Source: Bordetella genomosp. 12 (GTDB lineage: Bacteria; Pseudomonadota; Gammaproteobacteria; Burkholderiales; Burkholderiaceae_B). Taken from it: a stretch of 64,000 nt of DNA. Location of the stretch: contig NZ_NEVU01000001.1 in NCBI RefSeq assembly GCF_002261355.1, forward strand, positions 806,001 through 870,000, read 5' to 3'. Both the position numbers and the translations under genes were made by a program. The notes beneath the pieces were generated by a model. That model did no database searches, was not told the origin of the DNA, and was given only the letters and a program-made list of their open reading frames with translations. Below, one piece after another: positions 9,137 to 37,304 of this stretch (position 1 is its first letter; every line of letters begins with the position of its first letter).

Positions 9137-9162
9137 AGCGTTAAGTATCCGTGCGTAGTGAG

Positions 9163-20206: not shown

Positions 20207-20273
20207 GATGCGGATTCCTCTATGCGATGCGGGGTGGGTTAGGGGAGCACCTGAGAGGGGAAAGACGATGTAT

Positions 20274-20303: not shown

Positions 20304-20366
20304 AGCGGGAAAAAACTGCCGGTTTAAGTTGTAACGGCGACGGCAGGCCGGGGAAGCGGCGGCGGA

Positions 20367-21437: not shown

Positions 21438-21445
21438 GGCCAGCT

Positions 21446-21985
21446 TCAGCCCTGCGCGTAGAGCGTTTTGTAGCACTGGGCCATGGCGCGCACCATGGCC
21501 TTTTGCACGACGTTGACGCTGACGCCCAGTTGCTGGGCGATCTGCGGGTAGGTCAGCCCCTCGATCTGGGACAGCAGAAAGATGCTGCTGACCCGCGCGG
21601 GCAGGCCATCGAGCAGGCTGGCGATGTCTTCGAGGGTTTCGAGAATCAGCGCGCGCTGTTCGAGGGAGTACACCGTGGCTTCGGGTTGGGCGGCCAAGGC
21701 CTGCAGCCAGGCGCGCTCGACGGCCTGGTGGCGCCAGTGGCTGACGACCAGGCCGTGGGCGATGGTGGTCAGGTAGCTGCGGGGTTCACGGATGGCGTCG
21801 CGATCGCGCGCCCGGAGCACGCGCACAAAGGTGTCGTGCGCGAGATCCGCTGCGTCGAAGGAGTTGCCGAGCTTGCGGCGCAGCCACCCGAGCAACCATC
21901 CGTGATGCTCGCCATAGAGGACTTCGACGTGAGAAGAGGAGGGATCGGGCACGATCTGGTCTGCGATGCCGTCCCCGACATCCAT
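21446..21985 (-). CDS. Second ECF sigma factor, FecI type
   Basis: A 179-residue ECF sigma factor: region 2 at about 20-90 (LYGEHHGWLLGWLRRKLGNSFDAADLAHDTFVRVL, SYLTTIAHGLVVSHWRHQ) and region 4 at about 118-172 (LDGLPARVSSIFLLSQIEGLTYPQIAQQLGVSVNVVQKAM). The motif YGEHHGWLLGWLRRKLG is characteristic of the FecI/PvdS-like siderophore sigma group. A very good Fur-like site lies directly upstream of ATG 21985. It should drive the downstream FecR-like and receptor genes. Confidence 0.93.
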   Translation of the reverse strand: MDVGDGIADQIVPDPSSSHVEVLYGEHHGWLLGWLRRKLGNSFDAADLAHDTFVRVLRARDRDAIREPRSYLTTIAHGLVVSHWRHQAVERAWLQALAAQPEATVYSLEQRALILETLEDIASLLDGLPARVSSIFLLSQIEGLTYPQIAQQLGVSVNVVQKAMVRAMAQCYKTLYAQG

Positions 21986-22015: not shown

Positions 22016-22162
22016 CAGAAGCGGGGATTTCCGCAAAGAGTTGTGAGTAAACGTTGCTTGGCGGCATCAGCGCGCGTGGGGGTGCCGCGGCGCGGCCCGC
22101 CCCGGTTTTTGCCCTGTTTCGTAAAGCACGGCACGCCGCGCGCCCGTCCTCGGCGTTTTTTC

Positions 22163-22172
22163 GTACTAGTAC
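22163..22172. promoter_or_regulatory. GTACTAGTAC palindrome before the first response regulator
   Basis: A perfect 10-base palindrome preceded by six T residues, about 107 bases upstream of the response-regulator start. A near copy (TTTTTGGTACTAGTCC) occurs at 22967-22982, upstream of the phosphodiesterase gene. CTAG is usually rare in GC-rich proteobacterial genomes, so two copies in neighbouring promoter regions suggest a binding site, perhaps of the response regulator itself. Confidence 0.4.
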
Positions 22173-22278
22173 GGCCGCTTTCTCGTCAGGATGCGAACAA
22201 GTACGAGAGGGCGGCCCGGGGCGCGGAATTACAGTTGTCATCTCTCGTGCCGGACATGGCAAAAAAAGGCAATGCACG

Positions 22279-22938
22279 ATGACAATTTCTTTAATTCTCG
22301 CGGATGACCACCCTACGCTCATCGCGGGTCTGAAGTACGAACTCACGCAGTTTCGCACCATTTCCGTGCTCGGCACGGCCAGCAATTCCACCGAGATATT
22401 CGCGCTGCTCGAACGTTATCCCTGCGATTTGCTGGTGACGGATTATGTGATGCCGGGCGGTGACTTTGGCGATGGGATGAAGATGGTCTCATCGCTGCGC
22501 AGGCGCTATCCGGATCTGAAAATCATTGTGTTCACGACGATAGAGAATCGCGCCGTCGTGGCCGAGGTGGTCAGAACCGGCGCCAACGCCGTGCTGAGCA
22601 AGGCCGATGTGATCGATCACATGATCTCGGCCATCCATGCGGTCTATGCGGGGGCGACATATCTGTCGCCCAAGTTCAGACCCGCCGCCATCAGTGGCGG
22701 GGCGATGGACGCTGCTGCGCAAAGAAAGCTGTCGCGGCGCGAAGCGGAGGTGATCCGCCTCTATGTCTCCGGGGTGTCGGTCAGCGAAATCGCGAGCCGT
22801 TTCAATCGCAGCAAGCAGACGGTGAGCTCGCAGAAGGCCAGCGCCATGCGCAAGCTGGGAATAGAGCGGGACGTCGAGTTGTTCAAATTCGCCTATGAAA
22901 CCGGCCTGCTGAGCGTAAGCGGCAGCAACGAGGACTAG
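22279..22938 (+). CDS. NarL/FixJ-type response regulator 1
   Basis: A 219-residue two-domain response regulator. The receiver (1-125) has the acidic pair D9-D10 (LILADDHP), phosphoacceptor D55 (LLVTDYVMPGG), T86-T87 and K108 (VLSKAD). The LuxR-type helix-turn-helix (about 150-208) reads KLSRREAEVIRLYVSGVSVSEIA then SKQTVSSQKASAMRKLGI. The long open frame back to 22054 is non-coding in character; ATG 22279 starts the canonical receiver. It is a close paralogue of the regulator at 24383-25057, sharing the DYxMPGGxxGDG loop and the HTH. Likely phosphodonors are the two hybrid kinases downstream. Confidence 0.93.
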   Translation: MTISLILADDHPTLIAGLKYELTQFRTISVLGTASNSTEIFALLERYPCDLLVTDYVMPGGDFGDGMKMVSSLRRRYPDLKIIVFTTIENRAVVAEVVRTGANAVLSKADVIDHMISAIHAVYAGATYLSPKFRPAAISGGAMDAAAQRKLSRREAEVIRLYVSGVSVSEIASRFNRSKQTVSSQKASAMRKLGIERDVELFKFAYETGLLSVSGSNED

Positions 22939-22966
22939 CGATGCGCACGATCCGGGCCGCGCTGCA

Positions 22967-22982
22967 TTTTTGGTACTAGTCC
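22967..22982. promoter_or_regulatory. Second ACTAGT-centred motif, before the EAL gene
   Basis: TTTTTGGTACTAGTCC repeats the motif seen at 22157-22172 (T run, then GTACTAGT) in the 205-base gap between response regulator 1 and the EAL-domain gene. The rest of the gap shows no other clear element. Confidence 0.35.
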
Positions 22983-23143
22983 GATTGTTGGCCCCCAGGG
23001 CGCCGCCCATACTTGTTCTGTCGCCGCGCACGCCGGCCTTCCTGAAACCCTGACGCCCGACCCGGGCGCGATGGCGCGCGCGCCTGCGCGCTCGCGTCTG
23101 GGTCGTCCGTGGCGCCCTTATTGCAACCCGTGGGACCTTCATC

Positions 23144-24382
23144 ATGGACAACGCACTCGTGAAATCTGTACCCGCGTTTGCCGGCGGAGCGGTCGTGGTC
23201 GTGCTGGGGCGGCAGCGCGCGCTTGATGCGGTGTGGCAGCGCGTGCGCGCTCATGATGCCGTGGCCGCGCTGCACCACTGTCCGGATCTGGATGTGCTGA
23301 TGAACTGGGTGCGTGGCGGGGGCGTGGATGTGATCGTCTGCGATGTCACGGATGGCCGCAGCGAAGGCCTGTGGGTGCCGTCGCGCATGTTGCGCCAGGC
23401 CCGTCAGGCGCAGCGCCTGCCCAAGGTGCTGTGGATCAGCGATATGCCGGCTTGCGCGCTCGACCCGTTCGCGGCGCTGTGGCAGGAGCAGGGGGTGCGG
23501 ATACGCACGGCGGCGCCCGACGAGGACGTGTCGCAGGCGGTGTTGCGCTGCCTGACGTCGGCCCCGCGCGCGGTGGAGCTGCCGGCCGAGGTCATGAGCG
23601 AGCGCGACGAGCAGTTGGTGGCCGCGCTGGCCGGTGCCGACACCGGGCAGGCGCGCATCGTGTTGCAGCCGCAAAAGGAGTTGTCGACTGGCCGGATCGT
23701 CGGCGCCGAAGCGCTCATCCGCTGGCGGCAGCCGGCGCTGGGCGACATTCCGGTCGAAGACATGCTGCGCGACGTCGCGCGTCTGTCATTGGGGCCGATG
23801 CTGTTCCATTTCGTGACCGAACGCGCCATCGCCCTGCAATTGCAGCTGGTCGGGGCCGGGATTTATACGCGGTTATCGGTCAATGCCTCGGTGGCGACGC
23901 TCGCCATGCCGGGGGTGGTCAACAGCCTGGATGCGCGGGTGCGTGACCGGGGGCTGTCGGCCGGCCTGCTGAACATCGAAGTGACCGAGCGTGGCCTGAT
24001 CGCCGATATGGCGGCGGTGAAAACGGGGCTGCTGCGGCTGCGGGCGCGGGGGTTCGGGATCAGCATGGATGACTTCGGCACCGGCTCTTCGAGCCTGGAG
24101 CGTCTGGTGCTGCTGCCGTTTGACGAGATCAAGATCGACCGCGTGTTCGTGCAGCGCTTGCCGTTTGACGCGGCGTCGCGCGCCGTGGTGTCGGCCGCGC
24201 TGGAGCTGGGGCGGGTGATCGGTGCGTCGGTGGTGGCCGAGGGGATAGAGACCGCCGAGCAGGCACGGTATGCGCAGGACCTGGGTTGCCTGACCGGGCA
24301 GGGCTACGGGCTGGACCGGCCGATGGAGGTTGACGCCTATGTGCGCAAAGTCGACGCGTACGGCAGCCGGACGAGCCCCTGA
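23144..24382 (+). CDS. EAL-domain c-di-GMP phosphodiesterase with degenerate receiver
   Basis: A 412-residue protein in two parts. Residues 15-140 resemble a receiver: the phosphoacceptor position is kept (VIVCD67) but the acidic pair after the first strand is gone (VVVVLGRQ), so ordinary phosphorylation is unlikely. Residues 155-405 form an EAL domain with E189-A-L191, N247, E279-VTE, D309-D310 in MDDFGTGSSSLERL, K330-IDR, E366 in VVAEGIET and Q386, the full set for Mg-dependent cleavage of c-di-GMP to pGpG. The order receiver-EAL is that of RocR of Pseudomonas. It ends immediately before the convergent stop of response regulator 2 and probably lowers c-di-GMP to modulate the nearby fimbriae. 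Confidence 0.92.
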   Translation: MDNALVKSVPAFAGGAVVVVLGRQRALDAVWQRVRAHDAVAALHHCPDLDVLMNWVRGGGVDVIVCDVTDGRSEGLWVPSRMLRQARQAQRLPKVLWISDMPACALDPFAALWQEQGVRIRTAAPDEDVSQAVLRCLTSAPRAVELPAEVMSERDEQLVAALAGADTGQARIVLQPQKELSTGRIVGAEALIRWRQPALGDIPVEDMLRDVARLSLGPMLFHFVTERAIALQLQLVGAGIYTRLSVNASVATLAMPGVVNSLDARVRDRGLSAGLLNIEVTERGLIADMAAVKTGLLRLRARGFGISMDDFGTGSSSLERLVLLPFDEIKIDRVFVQRLPFDAASRAVVSAALELGRVIGASVVAEGIETAEQARYAQDLGCLTGQGYGLDRPMEVDAYVRKVDAYGSRTSP

Positions 24383-25057
24383 TCAACCGGTATCCGGGTC
24401 GGGCGGCGGCTTTTCCGCCGCGGCCACGAGGCCGGTTTCGAAGGCAAAGCGGAAGAGGTCCGCATCGCGCTCGATGCCCAGCTTGCGCATGGCGCTGGAC
24501 TTCTGGCTGCTGATGGTTTGCTTGGAGCGGTTCAGGTGTGCCGCGATTTCGTTGATGGATTGCCCCGAGGTGAACAGGCGCACGACTTCGAGTTCGCGTT
24601 TGGTCAGATCGGGGCCGGATCGTGCGGGCTGGTTGCGGCTGTCGCCCATCTGTGACGGATTGCTGGTCGGGAAGTAGTTCGCGCCCGCATAGACGGCGTG
24701 GATGGCGGAGATCAGATAGCGGATCTCCATCGACTTGCCGATGACTGAATGCACGCCGAGCTTGAACAGCTCCTGCACGATGGCCGGGCTGTCCAGCGTG
24801 GTGAAGACAATGATTTTCGTGCCGGGGTAGTTGCGGCGCAAATAGGAAACAAAGGAGATCCCATCGCCGTAAGCGCCGCCCGGCATGGCGTAGTCGGTCA
24901 CCAGCACGTCACAGGGCACGGTATCGAGCAGCGCGATCAATTGCCCCGAGTCGCGCGCCAGACCCTCGACCTTGAGCGTGGCGACGGCCTGCAATTCGTG
25001 CTTGATGCCGGAAAGCAGGGCGGGATGATCATCGGCGAGCAGGACGTGGATCTTCAT
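24383..25057 (-). CDS. NarL/FixJ-type response regulator 2
   Basis: A 224-residue response regulator paralogous to the one at 22279. The receiver has D9-D10 (LLADDHPALLSGIKHEL), D55 (VLVTDYAMPGG), T86-T87 and K108 (VIGKSM). The C-terminal LuxR-type HTH reads LTKRELEVVRLFTSGQSINEIA and SKQTISSQKSSAMRKLGI. ATG 25057 gives the canonical start; an upstream frame to 25204 is not supported. The gene is convergent with the EAL gene (adjacent stops) and divergent from the first hybrid kinase (25292), so a 234-base promoter region is shared with the kinase. Confidence 0.93.
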   Translation of the reverse strand: MKIHVLLADDHPALLSGIKHELQAVATLKVEGLARDSGQLIALLDTVPCDVLVTDYAMPGGAYGDGISFVSYLRRNYPGTKIIVFTTLDSPAIVQELFKLGVHSVIGKSMEIRYLISAIHAVYAGANYFPTSNPSQMGDSRNQPARSGPDLTKRELEVVRLFTSGQSINEIAAHLNRSKQTISSQKSSAMRKLGIERDADLFRFAFETGLVAAAEKPPPDPDTG

Positions 25058-25291
25058 GGCGACGGTTGGCCTTGGGCAAATATCAAGGGGCGAGGGTCGG
25101 CAACGCCAGGCGCCGCGCGGTAAACGGTAAGGACGAGCGGCCGTCCGTGGAATGCAAACTGCTCGGGTGCAGCTTCGGGGCGCGCAGCAGGCTTTGAAGA
25201 ACAACGTGATGGATCCCGCTCTCCGTCTCCCATTACCGGGAAGCAGATCCGCAATGGGAAGGGGTGCGCCTACAAGGCAACCTTAGCACGC

Positions 25292-28084
25292 ATGACTGTC
25301 GATAGAAACCTCACCATTCTTGCCCGCATCCGGCGTTTCCAGCGGTTTTTGCTCTTTGGCGGCGGGCTGTTGTGTACGCTGATCGCGATTTTCCTGCTCG
25401 CCTGGGGGGTGAACGCCACGCTGGAGGCGTCCTTGCAGGCCAAGCGGCGCGCTTTTGCAACCAGCTACGACTTTGTCCAGCACTTCGGGCGGCAGGGCGT
25501 GATCGCCCCGGAAAGACTGAGCGGCAGGCAGGGCCTGGCCGTGCTGGTCGACCGGCAGGGGGATACGGATGCCCGGCAGGGCGATTGTGTGTCGCACGCC
25601 TGTCCGCTGACGCAGAAGACCATCACCCGGCTGGCCGCCAGCGCGGGCGGCCAGGTCAAGGAAGAACGGGCCGACGGCCTGCTGCTGCTCTACCGCCGGC
25701 TGCCGGATTCGCGGGTGCTGATCCATGCCTACTCGCCGCACGGGCTGAGCGCGACGGCCAGCGGCAATGTCGTCATCGATCTGATGCTGACGCTGCCTAC
25801 CCTGGCGATGATGTGGCTGTTGCTGCTCTCGCTGAAACTGCGGGTTTTCCGCCCGCTGTTGGAGTGGTCGCGCCGCGTTTACGAGGGCGACCGGCTCAGC
25901 CGGGCGCTGATCGATACCGCGCCGGTCGGTCTGGGGGTGATCGCCACCGATAACGGCAAGGTGCTGATGCGCAGCCCCGTGATGGCGGAGCTGGCCCGGC
26001 GGATCGCGCCTGCCGAAGAGACCTTGGCGGAGCGCTGTCTGCAGCAGTATGCAAGCCACGTGAGCAGCGGCGACGCCAGCTGGCGGCATGGCGTGTTCAA
26101 TCAGGATTTCCGGTTCGACACGCATGACCACAACGGGCTGGAGTTGTCGGTCAGCATGGTGCGGGCCCGCTACCAGGGCAAAAGCGTGCTGGTGACGGCG
26201 TTTACCGACGTGACGGCCAAGACGCGGGTGGAGCAGCAGTTGCGCAAGGCGCGGCAGGCCGCGATCTCGGCCAACGCGGCCAAGTCCGCCTTTCTGGCGG
26301 CGATGAGCCATGAGATCCGCACGCCCATGAATGCCATCCTCGGCAATCTGGAGCTGTTGTCTCAATCCTCCCTGACGCCGGAGCAGAGCGAGCGGCTGCG
26401 CACGATCTGGGATTCTTCGGAGGGGCTGCTGGCCGTGGTCAACGACGTACTGGATTTCTCGAAGATCGAGGCCGGCGAGTTGCGGCTCGAGCGCATCGAG
26501 TTCGACGCGGTGGGCGTCTTGGGCCAGGCGATGAGGTTGTTCCTGCCTGCCGCCCGCGCCAAGTCGCTGTGCATGACGGGCTGGTTTGGCGAGGCGGTGG
26601 AGCTGCCGATGGCCGGTGATCCCACCCGGCTAGGGCAGATCATCAACAATCTGCTGTCGAACGCCATCAAGTTCACGCCTGCCGGCGAGGTCGATCTGTG
26701 CCTGGCGCTCGAGCAGGAAGCCGGCTGGATCACCATCGAGGTCCGCGACACGGGGATAGGCATGTCCGCTGAGCAGATGAGCCGATTGTTCCGGCCCTTC
26801 AGCCAGGGCGATGTCACGGTCAACCGGCGCTTTGGCGGCACGGGGCTGGGCCTGGCGCTGTCGCACCGGCTGGCGCAGGCCATGGGCGGCGCGCTATCGG
26901 TGCGCAGCGTGGCCGGGCAGGGCAGTGTGTTCACGCTGCGGCTGCCTTTGGAGGAGGCGCCCGGCGCGCCGCAAATGCCGCATTTCGATGGCCAGCACGT
27001 GCTGGTGCTCAGCGCCTGCCCCACGGCGAGCCTGCGCCTTGAAGCCGCCTTGCGCGCCTGGGGCCTGCGGCCTCAGATGTGTGCCGATCCGGGGCTGCTG
27101 GATCCGCACGCCATCCAGGCGGCCTCGGCGGTCGTGCTGTGGGCCGATACGGCCAACTGGCCGCCCGAGCACGAAAACCGGGTGATCGAGCTCTCGCACT
27201 GGGTGATCGATTGCGCCGCGGATGGGCCCTGCGATCCTTTGGTGATGGGCCGCGTGCTGAAGACCTCCAGTATTGGTCTGGGCGGTCTGGCGGCGAGCCT
27301 GGGGCATGCTTTGCTCGGCGCGCCGCTCAACGGCAGCGGACTCAAACGGGCGTACTTCGAGCGTGCGCTGCGTATCCTGGTCGTCGAAGACGACGCCATG
27401 AGCCGCACCTTGCTGGAGGATCAGTTGCGGATGCTGGGGTGCGAGCCGGTCTGCGTCGAGGACGGGTCGCGGGCATTGGCCTGCCTGGAAGGCGCCGCCT
27501 TCGATATCCTGTTGACGGATCTGACCATGCCCGGGCTGGACGGCTACACCGTCGCCGAGCATGCGAGCGCGCGCTGGCCCGATATGCCCATTATTGCCGC
27601 CAGCGCGCATGTGGCCTCGCAGGAGCGCGCGCGCTGCCGGCTGGCGGGCGTGGCGGTGGTGTTGAGCAAGCCGCTGGCGCAGACGCAGCTGGCGCAGGCA
27701 ATTTCGGAAGTCACGGGCGAGCGGATAAGATACTTGCATGTGCGCGCCGGGGCGGCGGCCGGCGATATCGCGGCGGCCAAAGACTGGGAGGGCTTGTACG
27801 CCAAGGCCTGCCAGACATCGCTGGCCAGGCTGCGATTGGCGCGCCAGGGCGGAGACGTCATCGTTCTGCTGGCCGAGTTGCACACTTTGCGGGGCATGCT
27901 GTCCATCTTCGGCGAGAACAAGCTGGGCCGTGTCGTGTGCCAGGTCGAGGCCTACCTCAAGGCCGAGGGCGGTCTGGCCGTATCGGGATCGCTGCTGGAT
28001 TCCATAGAAGAACAGCTGGAGGGCGCCGCTGACGGCGGCGCAGACGGTTCAAGGAATGGCCAGACGCCGCGCGCGCCTGGATGA
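25292..28084 (+). CDS. Hybrid sensor histidine kinase 1 with receiver and Hpt
   Basis: A 930-residue membrane kinase. Layout: TM1 about 20-40, a small periplasmic domain 41-158 with a cysteine pair (C99, C104), TM2 about 159-183, a PAS-like domain 203-312, HisKA with H340 (MSHEIRTPMN), HATPase with N-box near 453, DTGIGM at 486-491 and GGTGLGLAL at 515-523, a degenerate receiver-like domain 565-680, a true receiver 694-808 with D743 (LLTDLTMPG), and a C-terminal Hpt with H864 (ELHTLRGML). This is the complete phosphorelay of an unorthodox kinase and needs a separate response regulator, supplied by the NarL-type neighbours. It lacks the Venus-flytrap sensors of BvgS. Confidence 0.93.
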   Translation: MTVDRNLTILARIRRFQRFLLFGGGLLCTLIAIFLLAWGVNATLEASLQAKRRAFATSYDFVQHFGRQGVIAPERLSGRQGLAVLVDRQGDTDARQGDCVSHACPLTQKTITRLAASAGGQVKEERADGLLLLYRRLPDSRVLIHAYSPHGLSATASGNVVIDLMLTLPTLAMMWLLLLSLKLRVFRPLLEWSRRVYEGDRLSRALIDTAPVGLGVIATDNGKVLMRSPVMAELARRIAPAEETLAERCLQQYASHVSSGDASWRHGVFNQDFRFDTHDHNGLELSVSMVRARYQGKSVLVTAFTDVTAKTRVEQQLRKARQAAISANAAKSAFLAAMSHEIRTPMNAILGNLELLSQSSLTPEQSERLRTIWDSSEGLLAVVNDVLDFSKIEAGELRLERIEFDAVGVLGQAMRLFLPAARAKSLCMTGWFGEAVELPMAGDPTRLGQIINNLLSNAIKFTPAGEVDLCLALEQEAGWITIEVRDTGIGMSAEQMSRLFRPFSQGDVTVNRRFGGTGLGLALSHRLAQAMGGALSVRSVAGQGSVFTLRLPLEEAPGAPQMPHFDGQHVLVLSACPTASLRLEAALRAWGLRPQMCADPGLLDPHAIQAASAVVLWADTANWPPEHENRVIELSHWVIDCAADGPCDPLVMGRVLKTSSIGLGGLAASLGHALLGAPLNGSGLKRAYFERALRILVVEDDAMSRTLLEDQLRMLGCEPVCVEDGSRALACLEGAAFDILLTDLTMPGLDGYTVAEHASARWPDMPIIAASAHVASQERARCRLAGVAVVLSKPLAQTQLAQAISEVTGERIRYLHVRAGAAAGDIAAAKDWEGLYAKACQTSLARLRLARQGGDVIVLLAELHTLRGMLSIFGENKLGRVVCQVEAYLKAEGGLAVSGSLLDSIEEQLEGAADGGADGSRNGQTPRAPG

Positions 28085-28127
28085 GCACCGATGCTGCAAC
28101 CCCAATCTCAGACCATGATGAGCTGAC

Positions 28128-31100
28128 ATGAGTGTCCAAAAGAGCGAACCGAGTCCCGTGCTGGCGCGTCTTCGCCGCTACCAGCATGCGTTGCTGATTG
28201 GCGGCGGCGTCATCATTACCGCGTCCATCATCGTGGCGAGTCTGGTGGAGATCGGCGCGTCCGCGCAGGCCTATCTGACGCACACGAAGGAAGCCATCGA
28301 GGAAGATGTGCGCAGGTCCTTCGACGTCACCACGCAGGCGATCGCGACCTTGCGGCAGAACGTAGGCAACATCGAGTCGGCCTGGGCCGAGGCTTCCCGA
28401 GCGCAACCCGACGCGGCGCTGGCGCTGGGCCAGGATAATGTTCTGCGCGTGCAGCCCACGCCGGATGTGCCGCCCTTGCTGGTCATCCATGATGGCGGCA
28501 CGCCCGATGCCGCCGTGACGCAGCGCTTCGCGCAGGTGGCGCAACGCATGGCCGCGACCGCCAGCGCCGCGGCCGCGCGCAACGGCGGTTCGCTGGCGGC
28601 CTACGTGTTCAGCCCCGACAAGAAATACATCATCCTGTCCGCGCTGCCCTGGGGCGGGCCGCCATGGCAGGACCGCATCCTGAAAAACCCGCCTGCCCTG
28701 TTCGCGGCGCTGACGTCTTCCGACGGGCAAGACATCACGTTCGCGCCTTCCGCGGAGGGGCTGGTGTCGACGGCGGCGCCGCGCATGCGCTGGTTGCCGC
28801 CGTATCGCAGCCCCTTGTCGGGCAGGGATGCCGTACGCATCGCGGCCCAGCTCAAGGACGCCGACGGCGGTCCCATCGGCACGCTGGTTTATGAAATGCC
28901 GCTGACCACCTTGCTCGAACTGCTGCCTTCGGGAGCGGTGGGTGGCGCCTGCCTGTTGCTCGCGAGCGACCATTCCGAAGTCGCCCGCTGTCCGGCGGAT
29001 GCGCGATTCGGCCAATCGCAGGCGGGCACGGCAGACCTGCAGCATGTCGATCCGTCCTCGGGCAAAGGCCTGGCCCTGGGCGCGGTGATGAAGACCTGGC
29101 CCTTCGGGCCCACTGGCTGGACGCTGGTCCATGTGCAGTCATGGCGGGAGATCCTGGCCGGCGTGCGGGATCAGGTCGCGGTGACGGTCGCGACCTCCGT
29201 GCTCATCATTGCTCTGGTCTGGGTGCTGTTGCTGCTGGTCAAGCGGCGCGTGCTGACGCCGGCGGTGCGTCAGTCGCAACGGGTGTTCGACAGCGAACAG
29301 CTCAGCCGCACCCTGGTGCAGACCGCGCCCGTCGGGCTGGGACTGATCGCCAGAGAGGATGGCGAGGTGCTCTTGCACAGCCCTGCCATGGCGGCGCTGA
29401 CGGCCAAGGTGAACGAGGCCGGCGGGAGTCTGCCGCAGGCACTCTTGCAGAACTACCGCGAGCAGAACGGTGATGCGGAGGCGGCCGCGCCGCCGGCCGA
29501 GCCGCGGATTCTGCGCAGCGATCTGGTGTTCCCGCTCGACGCGGGCCGCCGCCTGGATTTGTCGGTCGGCATGGTGGGCGCGCGCTACCAGGGGCAGGAG
29601 GTGCTGGTCGCGGCCATCACCGACGTGACGCGGAACAAAGAGCTCGAGATCGAGTTGAGCAACGCGCGCCTGGCCGCCGAACACGCCAACGCCGCCAAAT
29701 CGGCGTTTCTGGCGGCCATGAGTCATGAGATCCGCACGCCGCTCAATGCCATCCTGGGCAATCTGGAGCTGCTGACCTATTCGCCCCTGAACGAGACGCA
29801 GCGCGATCGCCTGGACGTCATCCGCAGCGCCTCTGGCGGATTGATGGCGCTGGTCGATGATGTCCTGGATTTTTCCAAGATCGAGGCCGGTGAGCTGGCG
29901 CTGGAAGATCTGGATTACGACCTGATGGAGCTGGCCGCGGATGCGCTGCGGGTGTTCGCGCCCTTGGCCAAGGACAAGGGCCTGGCCCTGCATGGCGAAT
30001 TGGGCGCCGAGGTGGCGCTGCCCATGCGCGGCGATCCGCTGCGGGTGCGCCAGGTGCTGAACAATCTGCTGTCCAACGCGATCAAGTTCACCGCGACCGG
30101 CGCGGTGACGTTACAGGTTGCGCGCGATGATGCGCGCTCCGAGGTGACGGTCACGGTCACGGATACGGGGATAGGCATGACGGCCGGCCAGGTGCAGGAG
30201 CTGTTCCAGGATTTCCGGCAGATGGATCCCAGCATCGGGCGCCGTTTCGGCGGCACCGGGCTGGGCCTGGCGCTGTGCCGGCGTTTGACGCATGCCATGC
30301 AAGGCACTCTCGTGGCCCGTAGCCGGCTGGGCGAGGGCAGCGCTTTCGCGGTGACCTTGCCGCGGGGGGCATTCAGCGCGACGCTGCAGCCGCCTCGTTT
30401 CGAGGGCCAACGGATATTGCTGCTGACGGCCGCGCCCGCGGAGCGCGACGCGGTGTCGCAAGTGCTGGCCGGCTGGGGACTGCTGGTCGCGGCCTACGGG
30501 CATCCTGCCCTGGTCCAGACGCGCGAGGCCGAAGACGCCGAGGCCCTGGTCTTCTGGGGCGGGCGAGAAACATGGCATCCCGAGGATGAGCGACGGTTGG
30601 CCGACGAGGCCAGCTGGGTCATCGACGGCACCGAGGACGGGCCTGGCTACCCCATCGCATCGGGGCGCGTGGTGGCCGTCTCCACATTCGGGTTGCGGGC
30701 CTTGGCCGATGGCTTGCGCTATGCCTTGCTGGGCGAAGCCCCCGCGGTGCGCGAAGCGCCGCTGCGCAAGCTCGCGCAGCGGCTGCGGGTGTTGGTGGTC
30801 GAAGACAATGCCTTCAATCGCCAGCTTTTCATGGATCAACTGGAGCTGCTGGGCTGCCTGCCCACGGCGGCGCACGATGCGGGCGCGGCGCTCGAACAAC
30901 TGACCCAGGCCGCTTTCGATGTACTGCTGACGGACCTGGCCATGCCCGGCAGAGACGGTTTTTCCCTGACCCGGCTGGTGCGGCAGCGCTGGCCCGATAT
31001 GCCGGTATTGGCCGCCACCGCCAACGTCACGCCGCAGAAGCTCGAGCAGGCCGGGCTGGCCGGTATTTCCAGGGTATTGGCCAAGCCGGTGTCATTGGCC

Positions 31101-31619
31101 GAGCTGGCCGGCGCCCTGGCGCAGTTGGCCGGCCCGGGGCGGGTGGACAGCGCCGCCGCCGGTCCCGGGCCGCTCGGCGGGCGCCCGCTGCCGGAAGAGA
31201 CCTGGCGCGCTTATGTGCAGGCGTGTGAAGCCTCGGTGCAGCGCTTGCAGTTTGCGGCCAAGCGGGGCGACGTGGACACCCTGCTGGCCGAACTGCACTC
31301 GGTGCAGGGGGCCTGCCGTGTGTTCGGCTTCGACCACATAGGCGCGTGCTGCGCGCAGGCCGAGCACGCCTTGCGACAGCGCGGCGCCTTGGAGGATCCG
31401 GAGACGGTGCAAGCGCTTTGCGATGCGCTGCAGGCCACGGCCACGCGGGATCCTGCCTGCCTGTCGAATCAGGCGCAGCGCCTCGACCGCAAGCTGAGGG
31501 AGCGTGCGGAGGGATCCGCCGACGGCGGCGCGCACGACACGACGCGCGCGCTCTCGCGCATCTTGCTCGCTTCCTTGCGCGATCTCGATCGCACCCACGC
31601 GCAAACGCACAAGGCCTAG
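28128..31619 (+). CDS. Hybrid sensor histidine kinase 2 with receiver and Hpt
   Basis: An 1163-residue paralogue of the preceding kinase, 43 bases downstream. TM1 is at about 20-42. The periplasmic domain is larger (43-345, probably a double-Cache/CSS-like fold with C275 and C288), and TM2 lies about 349-371. A PAS-like domain spans 392-500, HisKA has H533 (MSHEIRTPLN), HATPase has TDTGIGM at 678-684 and GGTGLGLAL at 708-716, then come a degenerate receiver 758-870, a receiver with D936 (LLTDLAMPG) and an Hpt with H1057 (ELHSVQGAC). Kinase cores are very similar while sensor domains differ, so two signals appear to feed one output. A GC-rich stem-loop follows the stop. Confidence 0.93.
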   Translation: MSVQKSEPSPVLARLRRYQHALLIGGGVIITASIIVASLVEIGASAQAYLTHTKEAIEEDVRRSFDVTTQAIATLRQNVGNIESAWAEASRAQPDAALALGQDNVLRVQPTPDVPPLLVIHDGGTPDAAVTQRFAQVAQRMAATASAAAARNGGSLAAYVFSPDKKYIILSALPWGGPPWQDRILKNPPALFAALTSSDGQDITFAPSAEGLVSTAAPRMRWLPPYRSPLSGRDAVRIAAQLKDADGGPIGTLVYEMPLTTLLELLPSGAVGGACLLLASDHSEVARCPADARFGQSQAGTADLQHVDPSSGKGLALGAVMKTWPFGPTGWTLVHVQSWREILAGVRDQVAVTVATSVLIIALVWVLLLLVKRRVLTPAVRQSQRVFDSEQLSRTLVQTAPVGLGLIAREDGEVLLHSPAMAALTAKVNEAGGSLPQALLQNYREQNGDAEAAAPPAEPRILRSDLVFPLDAGRRLDLSVGMVGARYQGQEVLVAAITDVTRNKELEIELSNARLAAEHANAAKSAFLAAMSHEIRTPLNAILGNLELLTYSPLNETQRDRLDVIRSASGGLMALVDDVLDFSKIEAGELALEDLDYDLMELAADALRVFAPLAKDKGLALHGELGAEVALPMRGDPLRVRQVLNNLLSNAIKFTATGAVTLQVARDDARSEVTVTVTDTGIGMTAGQVQELFQDFRQMDPSIGRRFGGTGLGLALCRRLTHAMQGTLVARSRLGEGSAFAVTLPRGAFSATLQPPRFEGQRILLLTAAPAERDAVSQVLAGWGLLVAAYGHPALVQTREAEDAEALVFWGGRETWHPEDERRLADEASWVIDGTEDGPGYPIASGRVVAVSTFGLRALADGLRYALLGEAPAVREAPLRKLAQRLRVLVVEDNAFNRQLFMDQLELLGCLPTAAHDAGAALEQLTQAAFDVLLTDLAMPGRDGFSLTRLVRQRWPDMPVLAATANVTPQKLEQAGLAGISRVLAKPVSLAELAGALAQLAGPGRVDSAAAGPGPLGGRPLPEETWRAYVQACEASVQRLQFAAKRGDVDTLLAELHSVQGACRVFGFDHIGACCAQAEHALRQRGALEDPETVQALCDALQATATRDPACLSNQAQRLDRKLRERAEGSADGGAHDTTRALSRILLASLRDLDRTHAQTHKA

Positions 31620-31622
31620 CAC

Positions 31623-31651
31623 GCGCCGGGTTGACGGGGCCATCCCGGCGC
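31623..31651. terminator. Stem-loop after the second kinase gene
   Basis: GCGCCGGG (31623-31630) and CCCGGCGC (31644-31651) form a perfect 8-bp GC stem with a 13-base loop, four bases past the stop codon. No T run follows, so termination may depend on other factors. It separates the kinase genes from the fimbrial operon. Confidence 0.45.
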
Positions 31652-32039
31652 ACGGCAGGGGGCGTATCGGCGCCATGATCTGGCGTGGCTTGCCCACAGG
31701 CGTCGCCACGCCCGCGCGCGACTCCGTCGGCGCCGCTTTCGCGGTGCTGGCGAACGATTTTCGCCAAGCTTGAACACCGCGGCGCCGCGCGTGTTTTACC
31801 GGTTTATTGACACAACACAAGCCGGGGACGCCAGTCCTGTAAACCACGGGGATATTTCAGACCTGTCCTATATAGCCGGACGGGCGGAATGCCTAATATC
31901 GTTTCGGCCAGACAGGTGAAATCAATCCACCTAAAAAGCACATCAGTCCGCGAGGCTCGATGGGGCGTGCTGGCACAAGCGGCTGCGGGACATCTGTCAT
32001 CGGCCGAGTTTCCGAAACTTAACCTTTAGGTAAACCAAC
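31652..32039 (+). promoter_or_regulatory. Upstream region of the fimbrial operon
   Basis: About 390 non-coding bases, AT-richer than the surroundings in their second half. A TTGACA lies at 31807-31812 and a TATATA-like stretch near 31869-31874, but no pair has proper spacing, so I do not assign a promoter. There is no long homopolymeric C tract of the kind causing phase variation in Bordetella fim2/fim3. A near-palindrome TTAACCTTTAGGTAA lies just before the first gene. As the region between the regulators and the fimbriae, it is where a response-regulator site would be expected. Confidence 0.4.
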
Positions 32040-32585
32040 ATGAAAGCACTCATTCCAGCTCTCGCACTCGGTGGTCTGCTGGGCCTGTCGTCGATGGCGC
32101 ACGCAGCTGACGGCACCATCACTATCAACGGCGTCGTCGAAGACACGACTTGCTCGATCAATGGTGGCACCGCCGGTTCGTCCTACAGCAAGACCATCAC
32201 GCTGCCGTCGGTCAACGCCAGCTCGCTGACCTCCCCCGGCCAAACCGCTGGTACGTCGCAACCGGCCGACCTGCATTTCGCGCTGTCGGGCTGCACCTCG
32301 GGTGTCAAGGCGATCGCCTCGTTCGAGAACGGTTCCAAGGTCAACCAGGATTCCGGCAACCTGATCAACAGCGGCACCGCCGAGAACGTTGAAGTCCAGC
32401 TGCTGAACGGCAACATGGCGCCGATCAACATCACCACCAACTCCAACAACACGATGGATTCCAACGGTGCGGCGATCACCGGTGGCGTGGCGGATCTGAA
32501 GTACTTCGCCCGTTACTACGCCACGGGTCAGGCCACGGCCGGTACCGTGAACACCTCGGTCAACTTCACGATGCAGTACCAGTAA
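32040..32585 (+). CDS. Major fimbrial subunit (type 1 pilin family)
   Basis: A 181-residue pilin. A signal peptide is cut after AHA at residue 22, leaving a mature protein starting ADGTITING. C38 and C85 (TTCSI, SGCTS) can form the conserved pilin disulfide. The C-terminus VNFTMQYQ carries the penultimate tyrosine and alternating hydrophobics of the chaperone-binding G strand, and the early GTITINGVV strand serves as donor strand. It is the first gene of a four-gene chaperone-usher operon arranged like the Bordetella fimABCD locus. It is the likely shaft protein of a surface fimbria. Confidence 0.92.
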   Translation: MKALIPALALGGLLGLSSMAHAADGTITINGVVEDTTCSINGGTAGSSYSKTITLPSVNASSLTSPGQTAGTSQPADLHFALSGCTSGVKAIASFENGSKVNQDSGNLINSGTAENVEVQLLNGNMAPINITTNSNNTMDSNGAAITGGVADLKYFARYYATGQATAGTVNTSVNFTMQYQ

Positions 32586-32595
32586 GCGCACGTGC

Positions 32596-32627
32596 AAGGA
32601 GGCGCTTACGGTCATGGGCGCCTCCTT
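32596..32627 (+). terminator. Stem-loop after the major subunit gene
   Basis: AAGGAGGCGC (32596-32605) and GCGCCTCCTT (32618-32627) form a perfect 10-bp stem with a 12-base loop, 10 bases past the pilin stop and 36 before the chaperone start. In pap- and fim-type operons hairpins here stop or protect most transcripts, so far more pilin than chaperone and usher is made. With no T run, partial termination or mRNA stabilisation are both possible. Confidence 0.6.
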
Positions 32628-32662
32628 CTACAACAGACAGGTGATCGGTTTAAGGGTAGAAA

Positions 32663-33409
32663 ATGAAGCTCCCCAAGAAATTGAAACTAGGATTCGGGCT
32701 GGCATGCCTGCTGTTGGCGGGCGGAGCGGATGCAAGCGTAATTATCGGCGGCACTCGGGTGGTCTATCCGCTCGACCAGCGCGAAGTCACGGTGAGGCTG
32801 GAGAACGACAGCGCCTCGCCTTCGCTGGTGCAAGTGTGGCTGGACAACGGTGAACAGAATGCACAACCGGGTGATGTCAAAGCACCCTTTGTCATTACGC
32901 CTCCGATATTCCGTATGGATGCCAAGAAGCGCCAGACGCTGCGCATCATGCATACGGGCGGCGAAGCATTGCCGCAGGATCGCGAGTCGGTATATTGGTT
33001 GAACGTATTGGATATCCCTCCCAAGCCGGATGTGGCGCCGGGAACCAATACGATGCAAGTGGCCTATCGCACGCGCGTCAAGCTGTTCGTGCGGCCTGAC
33101 AATCTGCCGGGCAAGGCCGACGAGGCGCCCGCGCAACTCGACTGGAAAATCGTCGATGGACAGGGCGGCAAGGGCCAGTCCCTGAGTGTCTCGAATCCCA
33201 CCCCTTATCACGTCTCGTTCAGCCAGATCACGGTGCAGAGCGGGGGTCAGACGTTCAAGAATGAAGTGGGCGGCATGGTGGCACCCAAAGCCACGCAAGT
33301 GCTTCCCGTCACCAACATGAAGGCCGTGTCCGCGGGCGCCAAAGTGAAGTACAGCGCCATCAACGATTACGGCGGCGCCATTGTGGGCGAAGCCACGCTA
33401 GGCCGCTAG
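32663..33409 (+). CDS. Periplasmic fimbrial chaperone (PapD-like)
   Basis: A 248-residue chaperone. The signal peptide ends at GGADA, followed by the FGL/FGS-type start SVIIGGTRVVYP, whose arginine binds pilin C-termini. The G1 strand region VITPPIFRMDAKKRQTLRI holds the conserved lysine, and YWLNVLDIPP is the family signature. The second immunoglobulin-like domain covers about 150-245. It folds pilins by donor-strand complementation and delivers them to the usher encoded 60-120 bases downstream. It corresponds in position to Bordetella FimB. Confidence 0.93.
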   Translation: MKLPKKLKLGFGLACLLLAGGADASVIIGGTRVVYPLDQREVTVRLENDSASPSLVQVWLDNGEQNAQPGDVKAPFVITPPIFRMDAKKRQTLRIMHTGGEALPQDRESVYWLNVLDIPPKPDVAPGTNTMQVAYRTRVKLFVRPDNLPGKADEAPAQLDWKIVDGQGGKGQSLSVSNPTPYHVSFSQITVQSGGQTFKNEVGGMVAPKATQVLPVTNMKAVSAGAKVKYSAINDYGGAIVGEATLGR

Positions 33410-33531
33410 CGCGCGGCGGCTGCCGCGCGCGGCCAGGCGCGATTTCTTCTCCTTTCGTTTTCAATCTGAACGTGGTGAGCACGGGCGGTGTATGCGCACG
33501 CCTGTCGATCCGCAGCAGGACATGCCAGATC

Positions 33532-36228
33532 GTGAAGCAGACTCCGCAATTCCCGTCTTGGACCAGAACCGCCCTCTCGATGGCTTTGGCCCGCCTGTAC
33601 CCCAGCGTGGCGACAGTGGTGAGCGCCTGCCTGCTCGTGGGGGGCGTGCAAGCGGCGGAAGTGGCCACGGTGCCAGCGCCGGAAGCCGACCCCGCTGTCG
33701 TGACGTTTGATGAGTCCTTTCTGCGCGTGGATTCCGCGCAGCACGTCGACGTGACGCGCTTTGCGCGCGGCAACCCGGTCTCGCCGGGGGTTTACTCGGT
33801 GGACATCTTCGTCAACGACGAGCGCGTCGCCCGCCAGCCTGTCCGGTTTCAGGCGAACCGCGCCGGTGCGGGGTCGCAGCCCTGTCTGACGCGCACGCTG
33901 CTGGATACGCTGGGGGTGGATTTCAGCAAGGTGCCTTCGGGCAATACCGCCGCCAGCGTGGGGGAGTGTGTCGACCTGGCCCGCGCGGTGCCCGGCGCCA
34001 AGGTGGACTTCGATTTCTCGGATCAGCAATTGATGTTGACCGTGCCGCAGATGTATATGCGTAACACGGTGCGCGGCTACGTGCCCCCGGAACTGTGGCA
34101 GGACGGTGTGACCGCCGGCTTTGTCAGCTACAACGCCAATACCTATCACACCAGCGGCTCGGGCTTTAGCTCCACGCAGAATTATCTGGGCCTGAACGCC
34201 GGCTTCAATCTGGGCGGCTGGCGCCTGCGGCATCAATCATCGCTGACGCAGTCTTCCGGCAATTCCTCGCATTTCGATAACTACGCGACCTATTTGCAGC
34301 ACGACGTGACGGCGCTGAAGTCGCAAGTGACGCTGGGCGACGGCGCGACGACGGGCGATGTGTTCGATAGCGTGCAGTTCCGCGGCGTGCAGATCGCGTC
34401 GGAAGACCGCATGTTGCCCGACTCCCAGCGCGGCTATGCGCCGGTGGTGCGCGGTACGGCGGACTCCAACGCCCGCGTCACGATCCGGCAGAACAATCAG
34501 GTCATCTACGAGACCAGTGTTTCGCCGGGGCCGTTCGAGATCCGGGACCTGTACGCCACCGGTTATGGCGGCAATCTGGACGTCACCGTGACCGAAGCCG
34601 GGGGAAGGACCAAGACCTTCACCGTGCCCTTTGCGTCGGTGACGCAGTCGCTGCGCCAGGGCGTGACGCGGTTCTCGGGCACGGCGGGCCAGTTGCGCAA
34701 TCTGGGCTTTGACCACAAGCCGAAGTTCGGGCAGTTCACCGTGCAGCACGGGTTGAGCAATATGTGGACGCTGTATGGCGGGGGAGTCGGCAGCAGCGGC
34801 TACGCCTCGGCCAACCTTGGGGTGGCCGCCAATACCAGCCTGGGTGCGGTCTCGGTCGACGTGACGGGCGCGCAAACCCATGTGCCGGGGCAGAGCACGA
34901 TGCGCGGCACGAGCTGGCGCCTGGGCTACAACAAGTTCATCGATCCCACGAACACCAATATCGCGCTGGCGGCCTACCGCTACTCGACGGAGAACTATCT
35001 GAGCCTGACCGATGCCTCGTGGGTGCGCGAGTTGGCGCGGCGCAACGAGGATATCCGGTCGCGTTACCGGCAGAAGAACCGGCTGCAACTGACCCTGAAC
35101 CAGAACTTCAAGTATGGCGGCAGCGTCTTCGTCAGCGCCTCGGCGCAACAGTACTGGAATCGCGGCGGCAGCGACACGTTCTATCAGGCCGGTTACACCG
35201 ACAGCTTCAAGTACGGCTCCTACAGCCTGAGCGCCGGGCGCACGCGCAGCTGGGACGGCACCATGTCCAACCAGTTCATGGTCAGCCTGAGCATCCCGCT
35301 TGGTCGCACCCAGCACGCCCCCATGCTGTCGACCAGTCTGTCCCGGTCGGGCGGCGATACGCAGATGCAGACCAGCCTGAGCGGCTCGCTGGGCGAGACC
35401 AACGAGTACTCGTACAACGCCTACGGCACCTATGCGTCGGGCAATGCCAGCCATTCGACCGACGCGGGGGTCAGCGGCACCTACCGTGCGCCGTATGCGC
35501 AGATCACGGCGTCGGGCAGCAGCGGCAGGGACACCAACCAGGTTTCCGCCGGTATCAGCGGGTCCATCGTGGCTCACCCGGGCGGCGTGACTCTGTCGCA
35601 GATGGTGGGTGACACCTTTGGCGTGGTCGAGGCGCCGGGCGCCGAGGGGGCTCGCGTGCTGAGCGCACCCGGGGTCGAGATCAACAGCAGCGGCTACGCG
35701 GTTGTGCCTTATCTGACGCCGTACGGCAGCAATATGGTGGATATCGATCCGAAGGGGACGTCCACCGAGGTCGAGTTCGAATCCACGTCGGAAGAAGCGG
35801 TGCCGCGCCTGGGTTCGGTGGTCATGCTCAAGTACAAGATGGTGAGCGGCCGGGCAGCCTTGATCCGCGCCCCGCTGGCCAATGATGCGCCTTTGCCTTT
35901 CGGTGCCGATGTGGTGGACGAGAAGGGCGTGAGCGTGGGGGTCGTCGCCCAGGACAGCCAGATTTTTGCGCGCGGCCTGGAGCCCAAGGGCAGCTTGTTC
36001 GTGAAGTGGGGCCAAGGCTCGCACAAGCAGTGCCGGATCGACTACCAACTGCCGCAAGACAAGCCCCAATCCCGGGCCGCCTACCTCTCCCTGCAATTGC
36101 AGTGCGTGGCGGTTGGCGACGGGTCGCCGGGCCATTCCAACCATCTGGAGGGGGGCCGGCCGGGTCATGACGCCACGCCCCACGCCAAGCGCGTATCTGC
36201 CTCCGCAACTGATAAGCAGGAGCAGTGA
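33532..36228 (+). CDS. Outer-membrane fimbrial usher
   Basis: A roughly 898-residue usher. A signal peptide (YPSVATVVSACLLVGGVQA) precedes the N-terminal domain (about 45-170: VDVTRFARGNPVSPGVYSVDIFVN, with paired cysteines), then a 24-strand barrel with plug (PVVRGTADSNARVTIRQN), and the C-terminal domains with a cysteine pair (QCRIDYQLP, LQLQC). Starts are uncertain: GTG 33472 (longest), GTG 33532 (AGGA 14 bases upstream) and ATG 33580 (direct signal peptide). The stop overlaps the adhesin start. It corresponds in position to Bordetella FimC. Confidence 0.92.
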   Translation: MKQTPQFPSWTRTALSMALARLYPSVATVVSACLLVGGVQAAEVATVPAPEADPAVVTFDESFLRVDSAQHVDVTRFARGNPVSPGVYSVDIFVNDERVARQPVRFQANRAGAGSQPCLTRTLLDTLGVDFSKVPSGNTAASVGECVDLARAVPGAKVDFDFSDQQLMLTVPQMYMRNTVRGYVPPELWQDGVTAGFVSYNANTYHTSGSGFSSTQNYLGLNAGFNLGGWRLRHQSSLTQSSGNSSHFDNYATYLQHDVTALKSQVTLGDGATTGDVFDSVQFRGVQIASEDRMLPDSQRGYAPVVRGTADSNARVTIRQNNQVIYETSVSPGPFEIRDLYATGYGGNLDVTVTEAGGRTKTFTVPFASVTQSLRQGVTRFSGTAGQLRNLGFDHKPKFGQFTVQHGLSNMWTLYGGGVGSSGYASANLGVAANTSLGAVSVDVTGAQTHVPGQSTMRGTSWRLGYNKFIDPTNTNIALAAYRYSTENYLSLTDASWVRELARRNEDIRSRYRQKNRLQLTLNQNFKYGGSVFVSASAQQYWNRGGSDTFYQAGYTDSFKYGSYSLSAGRTRSWDGTMSNQFMVSLSIPLGRTQHAPMLSTSLSRSGGDTQMQTSLSGSLGETNEYSYNAYGTYASGNASHSTDAGVSGTYRAPYAQITASGSSGRDTNQVSAGISGSIVAHPGGVTLSQMVGDTFGVVEAPGAEGARVLSAPGVEINSSGYAVVPYLTPYGSNMVDIDPKGTSTEVEFESTSEEAVPRLGSVVMLKYKMVSGRAALIRAPLANDAPLPFGADVVDEKGVSVGVVAQDSQIFARGLEPKGSLFVKWGQGSHKQCRIDYQLPQDKPQSRAAYLSLQLQCVAVGDGSPGHSNHLEGGRPGHDATPHAKRVSASATDKQEQ

Positions 36229-37304
36229 TGAAGTCTGTGTTCAAGGTATTCCGTCAACCCATCGGCGGGGCGGGCGCCGCGCGGCGCGGCAAAGGCTTGT
36301 TGGCCGCCGTCGCGGGGGTGTTGGCGACGTTTTTTCTCGCCGCGCCCGCGCTCGCGGACTGCACGGCGGTGAGGCTGCCGGACCTCAACGTCAATTTTCC
36401 GCCCACGCTGGTGATCCCGCCGAACATCGCAGCCAATACGGAGCTCGCCACGATCACCGTGGCCGTCCCGGGTACGGCGCAGGGCGTGCAATACGCGACC
36501 TGCACAGGGAATACCTACTACTCTTACTACTGGCAGATCAAGTCGAACTCGTACGTGGCTAACAACGTCGGCTCGACCTCGATCGATGGCGTGGGCTATA
36601 CCGCCAGCCTGTCCGGCGTCAGCTCCAGCCCCATCTGGATGGACAAGCAGATCAATACCCTCGACAAGGAGATGAAGTTTCTTTCGCAGGTTTATGTGAC
36701 GGTGAAACTCATCGCCACGAAGTCGACCATCGGGACGGGCAAACTGACGTTGAATCCGCGCGGGACCGGCGTGGCCAATACCGTGGCTACGTTCTTTGCC
36801 GGCAATGGCACGGCCGGCAACTCGGTGGTGTTCAACGTGACCATGCTGCCCAACGTCACCACGATCAGTTCGGGGTCATGTTCGGTGGTCAACAGCGCGA
36901 TTCCGGTCACGTTGGATCCCGTCTTCACCACTGCGTTTTCCGGGGTGAACAGCACGGCGGGTGAAAAGCCCTTCTCCATCAACCTGACTTGCCCGACCTC
37001 CATCAGCGGTGTCTATATGACCCTGACGGATAGCGCCAATCGATCCAACCTGACGGACAAGCTCACCTTGACCCAGGCCTCCACGGCGAGCGGTGTCGCC
37101 TTGCAGATCCTGGACCCATCGGGGTCGCCGATCTCTTACGGCGCCGACTCCATCTCCTCGGGCAACCCGAACCAATGGTATGCCGGTAAACCCGTCAGCG
37201 GGAAGTTGAACGTGCCACTGAAGGCCAGGTACATCAAAACGGACACGCAGATCAAGGGCGGCACGGTCAACGGGCTGGCGACGTTTACGATGTCTTATCA
37301 GTAG
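36228..37304 (+). CDS. Fimbrial tip adhesin
   Basis: A 358-residue two-domain adhesin. A long basic leader and signal peptide end at APALA-D. The N-terminal receptor-binding domain is about 45-200, starting CTAVRLPDLNVNFPP. The C-terminal pilin domain has a cysteine pair (SGSCSVV, NLTCPTS) and ends in the donor-strand motif GLATFTMSYQ with penultimate tyrosine. The ATG at 36228 overlaps the usher stop (TGATG) and follows AGGAG. It matches the position and layout of Bordetella FimD; the binding target is unknown. Confidence 0.87.
   Translation: MKSVFKVFRQPIGGAGAARRGKGLLAAVAGVLATFFLAAPALADCTAVRLPDLNVNFPPTLVIPPNIAANTELATITVAVPGTAQGVQYATCTGNTYYSYYWQIKSNSYVANNVGSTSIDGVGYTASLSGVSSSPIWMDKQINTLDKEMKFLSQVYVTVKLIATKSTIGTGKLTLNPRGTGVANTVATFFAGNGTAGNSVVFNVTMLPNVTTISSGSCSVVNSAIPVTLDPVFTTAFSGVNSTAGEKPFSINLTCPTSISGVYMTLTDSANRSNLTDKLTLTQASTASGVALQILDPSGSPISYGADSISSGNPNQWYAGKPVSGKLNVPLKARYIKTDTQIKGGTVNGLATFTMSYQ

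Follow-up and report, generated by a model that had tools for sequence, protein, structure and literature searches.

BvgASR of Bordetella comprises an unorthodox kinase, a NarL-type regulator and an EAL protein, and the RocS1 kinase of the Roc system itself possesses an SBP_bac_3 and PAS input. According to the available excerpts on Roc, two kinases converge, and a kinase, an HTH regulator and an EAL regulator control cup fimbriae; the regulators RocA1 and RocA2 have different targets (PMC3083521). In Pseudomonas aeruginosa PA14, the accessible passages describe activation of cupD by RcsB, which also raises pvrR, with both PvrS and RcsC acting on RcsB (PMC3842833, PMC2696094). PvrR is described there as functional without its receiver aspartate (PMC3842833). 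For the cable pili of Burkholderia cenocepacia, CblSTR is described, in the portions of the sources available, as possessing two kinases, one of which reaches the pilus regulator via the Hpt domain of the other (PMC4866733, PMC3842833). In a review covering c-di-GMP signalling among the classical Bordetella (PMC12805831), a single passage bore on RocR, PvrR, NarL, REC-EAL or fimbria, and this dealt with BvgA targets.

Here, we analysed a locus within a 64,000-nucleotide stretch of Bordetella genomosp. 12 DNA (the window), drawn from a 4.5-Mb genome in three contigs. An initial annotation, made from the sequence alone, had proposed a distinct two-input fimbrial control system; the observation behind it was confirmed and its interpretation proved right in part. 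We put at roughly 0.57 the probability that, as the sequence suggests, the locus encodes a self-contained phosphorelay and c-di-GMP cassette whose own operator controls the linked fimbriae.

Gene content of the locus

Open reading frame and Pfam calls placed nine genes at 22279-37304, comprising five regulatory genes and a four-gene chaperone-usher operon. The reported grouping of two NarL-type regulators, a receiver-EAL protein, two unorthodox kinases and a complete chaperone-usher operon was thereby confirmed; the "eleven-gene set" named alongside it was a miscount. Directly to the left of the locus (17735-21985) lie genes for a TonB-dependent receptor, FecR and a FecI-type sigma factor. The G+C content is 51-61% in positions 1-12000 of the window and 62-70% in the remainder.

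Regulator 1 (22279-22938, plus strand; RRplus) and regulator 2 (24383-25057, minus strand; RRminus) are RcsB-family receiver-HTH proteins that are 54% identical to each other, both with intact receiver residues. These residues are invariant across six aligned regulators, their roles in the regulators being presumed. RcsB was the best NCBIfam model for both proteins (141.8 and 153.4 bits, below the cut-off of 235 for NF008098) and the closest solved structure to regulator 2, with which that search was run, and the family termed NarL-type in the initial annotation is thus given here as RcsB. In the alignment, the recognition helices of the two regulators are nearly identical.

Kinase 1 (HK1; 25292-28084, plus strand) has a short periplasmic part and kinase 2 (HK2; 28128-31619, plus strand) a dCache-like input part. 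Both possess the arrangement HisKA-HATPase-receiver-Hpt, in which the phospho-His, the receiver Asp and the Hpt His are kept (Hpt Pfam matches of 26.8 and 44.5 bits, respectively), and score 329 and 323 bits against the RcsC model (cut-off 920). The periplasmic part of kinase 1 is likewise short in its nearest relatives, from A. kerstersii and Pseudomonas sp. Au-Pse12, and longer in several more distant members. A 400-residue model of the kinase 2 input part (mean pLDDT 81) resembles dCache chemoreceptor domains, with TM-scores on the query of 0.26-0.51 among the 50 matches listed. Neither kinase gave a Pfam match to SBP_bac_3 (Venus flytrap), so that the earlier separation of this locus from BvgASR holds by the features tested.

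The EAL protein (23144-24382, plus strand) is a predicted c-di-GMP phosphodiesterase in which the EAL catalytic residues are kept. Its receiver had been called degenerate, and this was borne out: no Pfam receiver match was found and, at what we take to be the receiver motif positions, the acidic pair and the lysine are missing and D67 is retained. A receiver fold is nonetheless predicted by the structure model, and among solved proteins RocR comes closest to the EAL protein in both sequence and fold. Within this EAL subfamily the phosphoacceptor position is occupied by E in A. kerstersii and A. veterisilvae and by D in an Achromobacter MAG; the open reading frames of Au-Pse12 and P. delhiensis, where an upstream frame change is possible, encode a shortened receiver. 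Against the PvrR model (cut-off 580), the window protein scored 149 bits over residues 147-401, the EAL part only, and the A. kerstersii and Au-Pse12 proteins 166 and 153 bits. At four one-regulator loci, three from Achromobacter and one from Comamonas, the EAL proteins matched the same model over their own entire length at 432-508 bits, also under the cut-off. At a threshold of E 1e-62, with six candidates scored per genome, the subfamily was detected in 5 of 268 family genomes and 1 of 15 genus genomes.

The fimbrial operon lies wholly on the plus strand. Pfam matches identified a FimA-type major pilin (32040-32585), a PapD-type chaperone (32663-33409) and an outer-membrane usher (33472-36228, with 33580 the likely start by eye). 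The fourth gene (36225-37304) encodes a two-domain tip adhesin with a pilin domain and a weak MrkD-like receptor-binding region below the Pfam cut-off.

On another contig, the source genome also contains a Roc-type locus (L042:7292-13237; G000:C2:1127291-1133236), which encodes a receiver-EAL protein together with a NarL-type regulator and a kinase. The kinase possesses SBP_bac_3 (two stretches) and PAS, and the EAL protein a Pfam receiver (51.9 bits). A Roc-type pair of EAL protein and regulator was present in all six genus mates examined via EAL matches, with an adjacent kinase match in four.

Distribution and neighbours of the cassette

GTDB contigs were scanned with the six-regulator alignment, which returned 185 relatives; the best 80 of these 185 were kept and represent 77 distinct loci. 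A. kerstersii, Pseudomonas sp. Au-Pse12 and Achromobacter G091 share the five regulatory genes with the window, their order and orientation (RRplus-EAL-RRminus-HK1-HK2) being unchanged. An Achromobacter MAG contig ends after the first three cassette genes. In A. veterisilvae, RRplus-EAL-HK1 and RRminus-HK2 reside on two contigs, and in P. delhiensis RRplus-EAL is similarly separated from RRminus and two kinases. B. trematum possesses both regulators, kinase matches and fimbriae, and no EAL match was found in the 33 kb examined.

In the regulator tree, RRplus and RRminus form separate clades of 14 rows each (99/93 and 99/89, respectively). Each clade has representatives from Achromobacter, Pseudomonas, Serratia, Enterobacter, Bordetella and Paraburkholderia, and hence from beta- and gammaproteobacteria, with one RRplus and one RRminus in each of eleven genomes of the tree. 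Divergent RcsB-family regulator pairs from Burkholderia (L102-L104, L107, L109, L111 and L112) form a separate clade pair of their own. A third, more distant RcsB-type regulator is encoded near the cassette in A. kerstersii and G091 (L158:4642-5460 and L167:14123-14818).

The genes beside the cassette vary. In Au-Pse12, genes for a chaperone, an usher and a pilin (the last by eye) directly follow HK2. In A. kerstersii, approximately 12 kb separate the cassette from the nearest usher, which lies on the RRplus side, with the third regulator in between. The gene directly after HK2 in G091 encodes a protein of 1116 residues that contains an autotransporter autochaperone domain; the 39.8 kb examined there yielded no usher match. 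The proposed co-conservation of the whole gene set thus applies to the five regulatory genes and not always to the fimbriae. In Serratia Ag1, RRminus and RRplus flank a type I secretion operon (an ABC transporter above the LssB cut-off, HlyD and OEP), and a similar ABC transporter gene lies upstream of RRplus in Enterobacter and P. delhiensis. In the latter, an open reading frame of Ig-like repeats, interrupted by the contig end, follows RRminus. A. kerstersii also possesses a second copy of the RRplus-EAL pair, accompanied by a fimbrial subunit gene (L169:2945-6880), before which lie two operator-like sites.

The window regulators are nearer to those of Achromobacter than to those of B. trematum, suggesting transfer or differential loss; together with the presence of the EAL subfamily in a single genus genome, the tree suggests that the cassette may have been gained by transfer. 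Relatives of the right-flank permease in genus mates are only 49-59% identical, so no empty site was demonstrated there. In the plasmid collection, the best places for regulator 2 (980 records) were below 60% identity, as were those for the EAL protein among the matches listed (at least 5000 records). A P. aeruginosa plasmid encodes a 46% identical regulator adjoining other fimbriae. Nothing comparable to a two-RcsB adhesin cassette was found in the literature searched, among the matches listed.

A candidate 16-bp operator

The region upstream of regulator 1 contains a near-palindrome of 16 bp, TCGGACCAGTACGAAA; in this region, GTACTAGTAC is followed 34 bp on by an inverted partner. The paired candidate sites of this region (22159-22174, minus strand, and 22193-22208, plus strand) both belonged to the matrix training set. 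Such pairs, 33-34 bp apart (start to start) and with each site scoring at least 20 bits, are present in six of seven cassette RRplus promoters; that of Au-Pse12 has a single site. No pair of sites of at least 11 bits at 30-40 bp occurred in 1,018,977 background bases, most cassette sites having trained the matrix.

A strict pattern gave four matches in the 4.5-Mb genome, three of them in the locus, from which the pattern was itself drawn, and the fourth inside an open reading frame resembling a branched-chain amino-acid permease (by eye). The looser pattern ACNAGTACGA occurred 26 times in the genome, twice at the locus, and its reversed control 88 times. Enrichment of 8-mers across 66 regulator upstream regions did not recover the operator. 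The paired pattern was present in 9 of 68 regulator upstream regions compared with 102 of 1360 random windows, indicating that this pattern does not extend to the regulator family as a whole. Three operator-like sites in steps of 59-60 bp lie upstream of a regulator gene in Paraburkholderia dinghuensis (L085:13124-13258).

Individual promoters were assessed with a matrix built from RRplus promoter sites of other loci (the tested locus being held out) and 3000 dinucleotide shuffles per region; results are given below as shuffles out of 3000. The test regions were chosen after the best matrix matches had been listed, so the matrix was held out but the choice of regions was not, and the shuffle p values do not come from a blind test. 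Several Achromobacter loci among those tested are close kin.

Matches were obtained in seven of eight RRplus-EAL intergenic regions. In the window, the candidate site upstream of the EAL gene (22969-22984, minus strand), which lay outside the training set of the test, gave 0; the remaining six gave 0 (L080), 2 (L081), 7 (L082), 7 (L093), 0 (L168) and 6 (L169). The eighth, from P. delhiensis, had no site. Between HK2 and the next gene, matches were found before fimA in the window (29) and in Au-Pse12 (47) and before the autotransporter gene in G091 (2), with a combined Fisher p of 2.2e-5 for regions picked post hoc. The fimA site (31855-31870, minus strand), tested with a matrix lacking any site of the locus, is the weakest of the window's four; with an RRplus-only matrix it gave p 0.07-0.09 and ranked only 16th in the window.

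The A. kerstersii fimbrial region gave 10, with a site before a small open reading frame preceding the pilin gene (by eye), and its second-copy fimbrial subunit promoter gave 1. The type I secretion ABC-transporter promoters, again selected post hoc, gave 1 (Serratia Ag1), 13 (Enterobacter CC120223-11) and 0 (P. delhiensis). The better-scoring strand was opposite to the gene in 13 of 13 promoters: three HK2-adjacent adhesin, three secretion and seven EAL promoters. Further matches were found in P. dinghuensis (RRplus, 4; RRplus to chaperone, 20), Achromobacter Root83 (regulator, 2) and the RRminus/HK1 regions of A. kerstersii (3) and G091 (13). Middling values were obtained for P. delhiensis RRplus (37) and RRminus (122), S. 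oryzae RRminus (89), the Root83 regulator-to-chaperone region (87) and the Roc-type EAL gene (108).

No site was found at the window RRminus/HK1 promoter (1575), downstream of HK2 in A. kerstersii (2952), before the source genome's two other fimbrial operons (709 and 1813), at Serratia RRplus (2723), at Enterobacter RRplus (1576) and RRminus (2956), at the P. delhiensis giant adhesin promoter (777), at the RRplus promoters of Burkholderia SRS-W-2-2016 (991) and P. sejongensis (434), or between RRplus and fimA in B. trematum (p 0.28). Also negative were the Roc-type regulator promoter (1657), the region after RRminus in S. oryzae (2596) and the G002 kinase-to-fimbriae region (p 0.12). In Au-Pse12, the RRminus/HK1 region was negative within narrow bounds (599), and widening these brings in a site at 9860.

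Proposed mechanism and alternatives

The mechanism that we propose is modelled on the RcsB-cupD-pvrR circuit of PA14, as far as the available passages describe it (PMC3842833, PMC2696094). Phosphate would flow from two membrane kinases, whose input is a dCache-like sensor in one and a short part in the other, via their receiver and Hpt domains to the two RcsB-family regulators. Given their near-identical recognition helices, both regulators probably read the same 16-bp operator, either as homodimers or together. The operator before regulator 1 would confer autoregulation; as it also precedes the EAL gene and, less surely, fimA, one signal would raise the fimbriae and the c-di-GMP-lowering phosphodiesterase together. 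The phosphodiesterase may thereby act as a delayed brake, its dose probably set by transcription since the active site of its receiver is partly lost.

The two kinase-regulator pairs could instead form insulated pathways, kept separate and acting at different sites, with only one regulator controlling the fimbriae. The window RRminus/HK1 promoter, which has no operator, is consistent with such a division, as are the separate clades of RRplus and RRminus, whose functions may have diverged, and the precedent of RocA1 and RocA2 in the available text on Roc (PMC3083521). However, the nearly identical recognition helices, the adjacency of two kinases that both possess Hpt and the presence of an RRminus/HK1 site in A. 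kerstersii and G091 argue against it, and we consider insulation unlikely. A further reading, whereby the fimbrial operon is a mere neighbour of a cassette that controls itself and c-di-GMP, and is reached, if at all, via c-di-GMP, would accommodate the weakness of the fimA site, the distant usher of A. kerstersii and the lack of an usher match in G091. Against it stands the recurrence of adhesin or secretion genes beside the regulators, with sites that outscore shuffles whether the setting is fimbrial, autotransporter or type I secretion, and we judge it improbable.

Were the locus an ordinary PvrSR/RcsCB system carrying one additional regulator gene, the same types of part and linked fimbriae would be expected, as the accessible account of that system describes (PMC2696094). 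Against this, the window EAL protein matches the PvrR model in its EAL part only, whereas those of the four one-regulator loci match it over their full length. Furthermore, L128 and L126, the one-regulator loci whose kinases were scanned, each have one kinase without Hpt, compared with Hpt on both window kinases, and the regulators of those loci fall outside the RRplus and RRminus clades; this explanation therefore appears very improbable. Orthology to Roc/Sad could draw on the standing of RocR as the best solved relative of the EAL protein, but was rejected because a Roc-type locus sits elsewhere in the same genome, in agreement with the initial annotation. The kinase of that locus has the SBP_bac_3 and PAS matches that the window kinases lack, and we regard a Roc/Sad orthologue or a BvgASR-like system as exceedingly improbable.

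Returning to the self-contained cassette, the unexpected part is an operator that, on present sequence evidence, seems common to the regulatory genes and to unlike adhesion systems. We tentatively suggest, at odds somewhat short of even, that the RcsB-family regulator pair, the unorthodox kinases and their 16-bp operator constitute a horizontally moving module, placed before unrelated adhesion systems (fimbriae, an autotransporter and type I secretion beside giant adhesins), in which the EAL brake, its receiver decaying, is optional. If true, one cassette with its own DNA site would serve several unrelated adhesion machines, and the operator could serve to predict the surface structure that a bacterium couples to c-di-GMP. 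Two RcsB-type paralogues would have been retained together across genera, rendering signal integration at one operator directly testable, and the EAL protein would provide a natural example of a response regulator with a decaying receiver, perhaps because transcription sets its dose.

Comparison with known systems

A distinct two-kinase, two-regulator fimbrial control system, as first proposed, is a reasonable inference, and the following comparisons define in what respects it is distinct. BvgASR differs in the Venus-flytrap input of its kinase, for which neither window kinase gave a match, the kinase 2 model being dCache-like. The enteric RcsB/RcsC proteins share the regulator family and have a similar kinase core; however, the window proteins fall below the RcsB cut-off (142 and 153 of 235) and the RcsC cut-off (329 and 323 of 920), and Hpt is fused to both window kinases, unlike in enteric RcsC. 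Compared by description, the available portions of the CblSTR accounts name one regulator and no EAL protein, whereas the window has two regulators and an EAL protein (PMC4866733, PMC3842833).

Roc/Sad is alike in combining a kinase, an HTH regulator and an EAL regulator with fimbriae as the target, as the available text describes (PMC3083521). The Roc-type locus of the source genome possesses an SBP_bac_3 and PAS kinase and a Pfam-positive EAL receiver, and the window proteins have neither. The duplication of kinases and regulators noted by the initial annotation is true of the locus but does not set it apart from Roc, for which two kinases and two regulators are described in the accessible text (PMC3083521).

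That annotation also took physical linkage of the target operon as a distinguishing mark and overlooked the closest known system, PvrSR/RcsCB-CupD of P. aeruginosa PA14 (PAPI-1), in which, according to the parts of the sources available, an RcsB-family regulator, an EAL protein and two kinases are already linked to chaperone-usher fimbriae (PMC2696094, PMC3842833). In Alcaligenes, loci L126 and L127 show a Pvr/Rcs-like arrangement, with genes for a chaperone and an usher in a row with those for two kinases, a single RcsB-type regulator and an EAL protein; in L126, the match of the last to the PvrR model covers position 111 onward. By description, within the same partial accounts, PA14 has one RcsB compared with two RcsB-type regulators in the window; PvrS is listed without Hpt (a hybrid and an unorthodox kinase), compared with Hpt on both window kinases; and the PvrR receiver is described as not degenerate, in contrast to that of the window EAL protein, which is not a full-length member of the PvrR family. 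The cupD cluster is described as five genes with two chaperones in a different gene order, compared with four genes and one chaperone here. To the PA14 scheme of a regulator that activates both the fimbriae and the EAL gene, with the EAL protein acting antagonistically, the counterpart observed in the window is an operator pattern common to these promoters. The locus is thus best read, from its sequence, as a putative adhesin-control cassette of the Pvr/Rcs kind, portable between genomes, that differs in its two RcsB-type regulators, in possessing Hpt on both kinases and in its EAL protein.
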